Shown here piece after piece: positions 4,707 to 9,884 of a DNA stretch of 64,000 bases. The position numbers and the translations under genes are program-made. Every line of letters begins with the position of its first letter. Positions within the stretch are counted from its first letter, which is position 1. The notes under the pieces are model-generated. The model ran no database searches. It was not told the origin of the DNA and worked only from the letters and a program-made list of their open reading frames with translations. This DNA is from Methylacidiphilum caldifontis (GTDB taxonomy: Bacteria; Verrucomicrobiota; Verrucomicrobiia; Methylacidiphilales; Methylacidiphilaceae): the NCBI RefSeq assembly GCF_017310505.1, contig NZ_CP065957.1:1612001-1676000 (forward strand). Reading direction: 5' to 3'.

Positions 4707-5552
4707 TTGAGAAATCCTGTCATTTTAATTGAGAACGTGACATTGTTTCAGATTAAAAGTTTATTGTCTTCTTATCATCTTTCACCGAAAAAGAAATGGG
4801 GTCAGAATTTTCTTATTGATCAAAACTTGGCCAAATTGATCGTCAAGGAAACTCTTCAAGGATTGTCTTTACCAAAAGAAGTCTATGAAATTGGTCCTGG
4901 CCTAGGATCTTTGACTGAGTTCTTTTTGCAGGAAGATGTTTTTCTAAAAGCTATTGAAATAGACAGGGGCTTTTGTAAGGTCCTGTTCGATAGATATGGT
5001 GCTAACCATCGGTTTGAACTTATTGAAGCTAATGTTCTCGATTATCTTTTCCCACAGATTAAAAATGATAAAATCCTGGTAGGTAATCTGCCTTATAACA
5101 TATCCAGTCTTTTGTTGGCCAAGCTTGCCCTTCTTTCTGAACCTTTTCCCAGAATGGTCTTCACGGTACAACATGAAGTTGCTTTAAGGCTAATGGCAAA
5201 AATAAAAACCAAAGATTTTGGAGCGTTATCTGTTCTTATGCAGAATTTTTTTAATATTCGAAGGATTAGAAAAATTCCCAAAGAAGTGTTTTATCCCGCT
5301 CCTAGAGTAGAATCAGCCATTCTCTTTCTTGAACCTAAAGATACGGCTTTAACCATGACTGAGCCCGACAAGTATGCCTTTTATGCTTTTGTAAGAAAAT
5401 GTTTTTCTCAGCGAAGGAAAAAATTAGCCAAGAATATAGGCCTTTCTTTAGAAGAAAGACCAGAGGAAATTCCTCCTGGAGATTGGGTGATTCTATGGAA
5501 GGAATTAAAAAAATCCCGTATAGAGAAAAAAGTGGGTAGCTGTATAAACTAA
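4707..5552 (+). CDS. rsmA: 16S rRNA dimethyladenosine transferase
   Basis: Dimethylates the two adjacent adenines near the 3' end of 16S rRNA (KsgA family). Motifs: KKKWGQNFLIDQNLAKLIV, the SAM-binding motif YEIGPGLGSLTEFF, and the catalytic GNLPYNISS. The C-terminal helical domain has the RKCFSQRRKKLAKN segment. The longest frame begins at a TTG (4707) without a convincing ribosome site. A GTG at 4737 or TTG at 4743 are alternatives closer to the conserved start, so the true N-terminus is uncertain by about a dozen residues. Confidence 0.95.
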   Translation: MRNPVILIENVTLFQIKSLLSSYHLSPKKKWGQNFLIDQNLAKLIVKETLQGLSLPKEVYEIGPGLGSLTEFFLQEDVFLKAIEIDRGFCKVLFDRYGANHRFELIEANVLDYLFPQIKNDKILVGNLPYNISSLLLAKLALLSEPFPRMVFTVQHEVALRLMAKIKTKDFGALSVLMQNFFNIRRIRKIPKEVFYPAPRVESAILFLEPKDTALTMTEPDKYAFYAFVRKCFSQRRKKLAKNIGLSLEERPEEIPPGDWVILWKELKKSRIEKKVGSCIN

Positions 5553-5617: not shown

Positions 5618-5770
5618 ATGAACGAAGATAAACCAGAAAAAAAAGATAATCCCCAGAAGAGAAAAGCGGTAGCAGCCGAAAATATTTATTTTTTTATTAT
5701 CATGTTTTTGATCGGCCTACTTTTTGTATTCTTGATCTTTTCGGTAATAAACAAAAAAAGTTATATGTAA
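5618..5770 (+). CDS. 50-residue single-pass membrane microprotein A
   Basis: A short frame of 50 codons, ATG at 5618 to TAA at 5770. A polar, Lys/Glu-rich N-terminus of about 20 residues (MNEDKPEKKDNPQKRKAVAA) precedes one hydrophobic segment (IYFFIIMFLIGLLFVFLIF). A short tail with KKS follows. It is very similar in length, layout and sequence to the next frame 42 bp downstream, which is the main support that both are expressed genes. The family is not recognised. Size and topology are compatible with an accessory subunit of a membrane complex, but nothing in the neighbourhood identifies a partner. Confidence 0.7.
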   Translation: MNEDKPEKKDNPQKRKAVAAENIYFFIIMFLIGLLFVFLIFSVINKKSYM

Positions 5771-5812
5771 AAAAAACTTTTTATTTTGCTTAAATGACAT
5801 TAACATAATGTC

Positions 5813-5965
5813 ATGTCATCAAAAGAAGATCCAGCCAATCGTCGAAAGAAAACGATCTCTTCGGGAGATATTTATTTCTTTATTATAATGTTTGCAATAG
5901 GCCTTTTGTTTCTATTTCTTGCTTTTTCGGTTATCAGCAAAAGTACTGTCCATGTTCATGGATAA
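5813..5965 (+). CDS. 50-residue single-pass membrane microprotein B, paralogue of A
   Basis: A second 50-codon frame, ATG at 5813 to TAA at 5965. A charged N-terminus (MSSKEDPANRRKKT) is followed by IYFFIIMFAIGLLFLFLAF and a short tail, SVISKSTVHVHG. The shared core with microprotein A is IYFFIIMF-IGLLF-FL-FSVI-K-S, so the pair arose by tandem duplication and the protein sequence has been kept. Function is unknown. Read-through from rsmA upstream is possible. The exopolyphosphatase gene starts 88 bp downstream and could share a transcript. Confidence 0.7.
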   Translation: MSSKEDPANRRKKTISSGDIYFFIIMFAIGLLFLFLAFSVISKSTVHVHG

Positions 5966-6053: not shown

Positions 6054-7535
6054 ATGGATCTGGCTGCATCGGTAGACATAGGCTCACATAGTTTTCATTT
6101 GCTCGTCGTTCAAGTGGAAAACGAATCGATCCGACCAATCGACAAAATTAGAGATCCCGTTTCTCTTGCAGCAGGTTTAGATGAGAACAGGTATCTAAGC
6201 CAAGAATCCATATCAAGAGCTGTAGATACTCTGCGTCGATTCGGAGAAAGGATAAGATTGATTCCTCCTCATCGAGTTAGAGCGGTGGGTACAAATACCC
6301 TTCGCATAGCAAAAAATAGAGAAGAATTTATCAAATGTGCAGAACCAGCCTTAGGTCATCAAATCGATATCATCTCTGGCCATGAAGAAGCTCGTCTTAT
6401 CTATCTTGGGGTTGCTCATTGCATGGAAGATGATGCTCAAAAAAGGCTAGTTGTAGACATTGGGGGAGGGAGTACTGAACTTATATTAGGAGAAGGATTT
6501 TCAGCTCGTCGAGTAGAAAGTCTTTATATCGGGTGTGTGAGCTTATCTAAAGCTTTTTTCCCCGACGGATTCATTACCCCTTCTCGATTGAGAAATGCTG
6601 AAATTATGGCTTTACAAGAATTAGAACCGATAGCAAACACTTTCAAGAAACATGGTTGGCAGAGGACGATTGGATCCAGTGGTACGATTTTAGCTATTCA
6701 AGAAGCTGTACTGGCTGAGGGTTGGTCGAAGAGTGGTATTAGTGCTTTATCGTTGAAAAAATTAAGAAAACATCTTTTAGCTGCAGGCAGCCTAGAGCAG
6801 CTTTCACTTAAAGGAGTGGACTCTGACAGAAAGCAAGTTTTACTGGGTGGATTTGCTATCCTTTCAGCAATTTTTGAGTCTCTTTCTCTGGAGGTGATGG
6901 AAGTTTCGTCGGGTGCTCTTAGGGAAGGGGTAATCTATGATTTGTTGGGCAGGCTTTACCAAAAAGATATTAGGGAGAAAACGGTAAAAGAGCTCATGAA
7001 CCGCTTCCAGGTTGATAAAGCTCAAGCAGAAAGGGTTCGTGCTGTGAGCTGCAGTCTTTATGAAAAAGTTAAAAAAGACTGGAAAATAGAAGGGGATTTT
7101 CAAAGAAGAATGATTATTTGGGCTTCACTCCTTCATGAAATAGGTCTGTTTGTTTCTTATAGTCAATATCACAAACATGGACAATACCTTTTAAATCACC
7201 TGGATATGCCAGGTTTTTCTCTTAGAGATCAACAATGGCTTTCTTTGCTTGTACGCTGCCATAGAAGAAAGTTTCCGCTTTCAGAGCTTCAATTGTTAAG
7301 GCCCGAAGATCGAGAGGCGCTAAGAAAGCTTGGAGTTTTATTAAGACTGGCTGTCTTGCTTAATAGAGTTCGCAGTGATGATGAAATCCCTCAGATAGAT
7401 ATAAAAGTGAACTCTAACCTCATTAAGCTGACATTTCCAGAAGGGTGGCTTCAAAACCACCCGCTGACTACAGCTGATTTAGCCACCGAAGCAAATTATT
7501 TGATCGGTGCGGGTTTTTTCTTGCAATATAGCTGA
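6054..7535 (+). CDS. exopolyphosphatase / guanosine pentaphosphate phosphohydrolase
   Basis: Ppx/GppA family enzyme that trims phosphate from polyphosphate or pppGpp. 493 residues. The ASKHA ATPase fold shows its phosphate-binding motifs: DIGSHSFHLLVVQ near the start and VVDIGGGSTELILGEG near residue 135. A glycine motif IGSSGTI lies near 205 and SSGALREGVIYDLL near 285. The C-terminal third is an HD-like helical domain (ASLLHEIGLF and KHGQYLLNH), as in long Ppx proteins. It runs convergently into zwf with only 10 bp between stop codons. Confidence 0.92.
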   Translation: MDLAASVDIGSHSFHLLVVQVENESIRPIDKIRDPVSLAAGLDENRYLSQESISRAVDTLRRFGERIRLIPPHRVRAVGTNTLRIAKNREEFIKCAEPALGHQIDIISGHEEARLIYLGVAHCMEDDAQKRLVVDIGGGSTELILGEGFSARRVESLYIGCVSLSKAFFPDGFITPSRLRNAEIMALQELEPIANTFKKHGWQRTIGSSGTILAIQEAVLAEGWSKSGISALSLKKLRKHLLAAGSLEQLSLKGVDSDRKQVLLGGFAILSAIFESLSLEVMEVSSGALREGVIYDLLGRLYQKDIREKTVKELMNRFQVDKAQAERVRAVSCSLYEKVKKDWKIEGDFQRRMIIWASLLHEIGLFVSYSQYHKHGQYLLNHLDMPGFSLRDQQWLSLLVRCHRRKFPLSELQLLRPEDREALRKLGVLLRLAVLLNRVRSDDEIPQIDIKVNSNLIKLTFPEGWLQNHPLTTADLATEANYLIGAGFFLQYS

Positions 7536-9564: not shown

Positions 9565-9884
9565 ATGATATTTCTATTTTGAATTTTTAAGCCTTTTATA
9601 AAAAATAGTTCCTGTAAAAGAGAGAAGAAAGTATTTCTTTTTTGTCTTCTCTTCTGTAGAAAAGTCCAGTAAAAAGAATAAATCACTCCATTATGCTTCG
9701 CATTTATTAGTCTTTCTTCTAATGGATAAGATTAACAATCTATAGAAGAACTCCACACTCCTTCTCCGCAGATTGAGGGCATATTTTTAGCAATTCTTCC
9801 TGAGTTTTCATTTCCTTCTTTTGATTCTAAACTTCTTTTGAAGCGCTGCTCAATACCCAATGAATGACGAAAAAGGACAATAAT
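9565..9884. other. intergenic region between lipoprotein and oxidase genes
   Basis: About 320 bp carrying the divergent promoters of the lipoprotein gene and of the oxidase subunit I gene. It is AT-rich on the lipoprotein side. A very short frame opens at ATG 9860 and stops after seven codons, just before the oxidase start; it overlaps the alternative start at 9864. No stem-loop or known riboswitch was recognised. Confidence 0.5.

Follow-up and report, generated by a model that had tools for sequence, protein, structure and literature searches.

Two tandem single-helix membrane microproteins of Methylacidiphilum caldifontis and their relatives in acid-loving methane-oxidising Verrucomicrobia

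The window, that is the whole stretch of 64,000 nucleotides of Methylacidiphilum caldifontis DNA analysed here, contains two consecutive forward-strand frames of 50 codons with similar products, and the question raised by this locus is whether they are real genes and what such a pair of small membrane proteins might do. Both frames, pointed out in a preliminary description, are present and are arranged with their neighbours as follows (coordinates of the window).

4740..5552, + strand: rsmA/ksgA (16S rRNA dimethyltransferase), upstream neighbour of A, context only
5618..5770, + strand: ORF A, 50 aa, basic N-terminus, one transmembrane helix, C-terminus KKSYM, no TVHVHG tail
5771..5812, + strand: A-B spacer, 42 nt, 42-43 nt long in 5/5 Methylacidiphilum species, without predicted terminator
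5813..5965, + strand: ORF B, 50 aa, one transmembrane helix, C-terminal tail TVHVHG
6054..7535, + strand: ppx/gppA-type phosphatase gene, downstream neighbour of B, context only

The products fall in the known broad class of small single-span membrane proteins, having fewer than about 60 aa, one predicted helix and a conserved coding sequence. The single membrane segment proposed for them was recovered in an AlphaFold2 single-sequence model of ORF B, which comprises one helix (residues 17-49, mean pLDDT 78), and the hydrophobic core begins at about residue 19 of the 50. They would most likely span the inner membrane once with the N-terminus inside and the C-terminus outside, as expected from the basic N-terminus under the positive-inside rule. 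Two of the traits first described are of narrower scope: the length of exactly 50 codons holds in this species and is not shared by the genus, where lengths are 49-51 aa (A 50-51 and B 49-50 in the other species), the equal length of A and B being a coincidence of this species; and the charged N-termini are basic in Methylacidiphilum but combine acidic and basic residues in the sister genus.

In the five Methylacidiphilum genomes both frames are open, and the order rsmA - A - B - ppx/gppA is kept in the four other than this one, with a gap of 42-43 nt. The same pair is carried by a contig of Methylacidiphilum sp. Yel, the sole relative in a scan of genome contigs. Beyond the frames the alignment between species collapses quickly, and within them changes are mostly at synonymous sites (Fisher tests of synonymous versus non-synonymous differences in A and B, p = 6e-3 to 1e-13). 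Between species of the genus, dN/dS by the NG86 method lay between 0.06 and 0.30 for A and did not exceed about 0.08 for B; several comparisons were saturated at dS, and these figures come only from those with finite dS. Translation of both frames, as claimed beforehand, is thus borne out by selection across species: homologous frames are present in related genomes and Ka/Ks lies far below 1. Judging from these comparisons, A and B are real genes under purifying selection.

The paralogy claimed for A and B also stands. The shared core IYFFIIMF-IGLLF-FL-FSVI-K comprises 21 identities with an ungapped score of 114. In 5000 segment-wise shuffles preserving the composition of each segment, scores averaged 37.9 and never exceeded 82, which places A and B 11.8 standard deviations above composition-matched expectation. 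The tandem arrangement is supported as a duplication, the sister genus having a single copy. Of 26 core residues A and B have 18-21 in common with each other and 6-13 with the sister-genus proteins, so that the duplication most likely arose in Methylacidiphilum after the two genera had separated, the alternative being gene conversion between the two copies. The C-terminal ends are ...YSVLNHDTVNIHGH in the sister genus, ...FSVISKSTVHVHG in B and ...FSVINKKSYM in A, and the sister-genus proteins finish in TVNIHGH, comparable to TVHVHG of B. Most likely, then, B is the ancestral-type copy and A the duplicate that lost the tail. A hetero-oligomer of A and B would be possible.

A third and looser relative, of 55 aa and ending in ...FSAINQSSPYERMFHR, was identified at L060:3772-3939 (C1:75771-75938 of the same genome), flanked by a Slp-family lipoprotein gene and a glycosyltransferase gene and kept in all five Methylacidiphilum genomes. 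The four of these that were read share an identical C-terminal end, SSPYERMFHR. Its profile score was equalled by 4-13 of 2000 composition-preserving shuffles, and homology to the A/B family is probable on that comparison.

A and B are probably co-transcribed. No promoter or terminator was predicted between them, and the promoter scan gave no sigma-70-like site upstream of either. The constant spacing of 42-43 nt and the lack of a predicted terminator suggest one A-B transcript, the constant gap fitting co-transcription more easily than independent regulation. A candidate operator before B, the perfect 9-nt inverted repeat ATGACATTA-aca-TAATGTCAT at about 5793-5813, was discarded, as the other four species lack it.

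Outside Methylacidiphilum, one full-length relative of 58-73 aa was identified in each of seven genomes of a sister genus of the same family (G006-G012). By inference this genus is Methylacidimicrobium, because G006 has a local GC content of about 64% and carries two pmoC copies side by side, with a multicopper oxidase gene close to them; such an arrangement of pmoC and oxidase genes has been described for M. thermophilum AP8 (PMC7907005). Core residues F, F, L, S and V are invariant in the 11 family sequences compared. The order (62 genomes) comprises 13 genomes with pmoC, 12 of which carry the family, and 49 that lack pmoC, none of which does. The exception is G005, which has pmoC and no detectable family member, an absence that may reflect an assembly gap or strong divergence; owing to it, the family was not detected everywhere that the lineage has particulate methane monooxygenase (pMMO). 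The match is compatible with shared ancestry alone, since the 13 pmoC-bearing genomes form one clade, a single family. No convincing relative turned up elsewhere in the order or among 388 genomes of the phylum, and the matches of a phylum-wide profile search outside the family were discarded as weak, partial and mostly located in long frames. Within the genomes searched, the family is restricted to acid-loving methane-oxidising Verrucomicrobia. G010 has in addition a degenerate second copy, interrupted by a frameshift and by a stop, on contig C82 (L159:5614-5785, minus strand) and apart from the pmo locus.

The surroundings of the small gene differ between the two genera. In the sister genus the order is pmoA-pmoC (divergent), a class I methyltransferase gene and the small gene in the six contigs that were long enough, the methyltransferase gene adjoining the small gene in all seven; the small gene starts about 1 kb from the start of pmoC. 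PmoA, PmoC and the methyltransferase were identified via Pfam. Neither rsmA nor ppx lies beside the small gene there, and the best match to this methyltransferase in Methylacidiphilum, with about 36% identity, is not a close orthologue. Linkage to pmoCAB is seen in the sister genus and absent in Methylacidiphilum, where the A/B pair lies about 0.4-0.55 Mb from every pmoC. Going by operon order and numbering, the pmo operon that adjoins the small gene seems to be the one with hardly any expression in M. thermophilum AP8 growing at its maximal rate (PMC7907005), the match of G006 to AP8 being itself inferred.

The reading preferred here is that A and B are co-transcribed tandem duplicates serving as accessory single helices of a larger inner-membrane complex, a tentative proposal with somewhat less than an even chance of being right. 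Each would be a small stabilising or assembly helix packing against the complex through the invariant F, F, L, S and V, the TV[HN][IV]HG tail of B would make a periplasmic contact, and A, as an alternative form, would share the helix and lack the tail. The reason for the preference is that the invariant helix residues together with the conserved tail suggest a fixed partner, at the membrane and at its outer face. Conservation along the helix is not significantly periodic towards one side (p = 0.2), and a single packing face is thus not borne out. The proximity to pmoC in the sister genus gives indirect support to an accessory subunit, and the best candidate partner is pMMO or its copper-handling apparatus, although this particular pairing is unlikely. 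Counting against it are the distance of the pair from pmoC in Methylacidiphilum, the undetected family member in G005, the descent of all pMMO genomes from one family and the poor expression of the operon that seems to adjoin the small gene in AP8. Less likely still is the specific version in which A/B and their single-copy relatives would be a fourth subunit of the verrucomicrobial pMMO not described before, or its copper-delivery helix, an analogue of the archaeal AmoX/Y/Z, and the tailed and tail-less versions could match the several isoenzymes of Methylacidiphilum.

The main rival to an accessory helix is a free microprotein with a regulatory or stress role, like YohP, MgtR or small proteins of the KdpF type: A and B would then act transiently on the membrane itself, on a transporter or on a protease substrate, and would not be stable parts of an enzyme complex. 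It is a serious possibility, if a doubtful one: the size, the single helix and the lack of an operon partner common to both genera agree with it, and small membrane proteins, a common class, are frequently induced by stress (PMC10903887, PMC12719787). However, the C-terminal motif and the helix core are kept across two genera, and the sister-genus copy remains near pmoC, which suggests a fixed partner.

It is rather improbable that the pair belongs to another respiratory complex, such as cytochrome c oxidase, or to the Sec translocon. A cytochrome c oxidase subunit I gene starts at 9864, about 4 kb downstream, however zwf and a predicted lipoprotein gene, on the other strand, intervene, and no such locus surrounds the sister-genus copy. 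Resemblances to Asp4 and SecE, which would favour Sec, were weak: the best Asp4 score was 16.2 bits versus a cut-off of 27.7, and SecE was matched only by the distant third paralogue, with 13 versus 22.7. A PDB profile search gave generic helices only (best E = 0.07) and no relative of solved structure.

That the likeness is convergent helix composition in frames that are not genes is extremely improbable. F/I/L-rich hydrophobic segments can be alike by chance, and the weak matches in other genomes are of such kind, but for A and B this is ruled out by the shuffles (z = 11.8), by the synonymous excess and by the fact that five species keep the frames, the gap and the tail motif.

No Pfam or NCBIfam model scored above its curated cut-off for the family, and no mention of the pair was found in the literature searched. 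CydX, AcrZ, KdpF and YohP are likewise under about 60 aa with a single helix, and no sequence relation to them was found with Pfam or NCBIfam; such proteins are often accessory to a larger membrane complex or related to stress. Closest in kind, and in kind only, are AmoX, AmoY and AmoZ of the archaeal ammonia monooxygenase, likewise small, mainly helical membrane proteins of one copper-monooxygenase lineage, with genes linked to the enzyme in some genomes and dispersed in others (PMC10030591). Those are subunits established by native gels and cross-linking, whereas an accessory role of A/B is proposed from sequence; they are also larger (AmoY about 9.6 kDa, AmoZ about 12.8 kDa; PMC10030591), and in the A/B family linkage to the enzyme genes occurs in one genus only. 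PmoD, a copper protein of methanotrophs, is another accessory gene product tied to pMMO, much larger than A/B and with a periplasmic copper-binding domain (PMC6189053); no sequence resemblance to it was noticed. The PmoD gene of the present genome, by our own identification, adjoins a pmoC copy.

Were the link to pMMO true, it would mean a lineage-specific subunit added to an enzyme of debated native composition. The isolated enzyme is less active than in cells (PMC6189053), and the native subtomogram map from a proteobacterial methanotroph contains densities that the model does not fit (PMC9445010). Even without that link, the small genes form a clearly delimited family that the annotation libraries searched do not contain and that is easily tested in cultured Methylacidiphilum.

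Farther along the sister-genus locus are a conserved protein without Pfam match and a small His/Met-rich protein of secreted type, and in G006 also the multicopper oxidase. In two sister-genus genomes an inserted transposase-like gene separates the small gene from the next one downstream (L050:5350-6110, L055:5458-6804). The protein without Pfam match has a Methylacidiphilum orthologue about 10 kb from the pmo cluster. A protein conserved near pmo in both genera (L158:6476-7000) is encoded at C1:2170475-2170999 of the present genome, following a TonB-dependent-receptor-like gene. The His/Met-rich protein (EHHGxSMELHHMHLVINHAV...; L050:6860-7276, L049:4545-4955) is possibly copper-binding.
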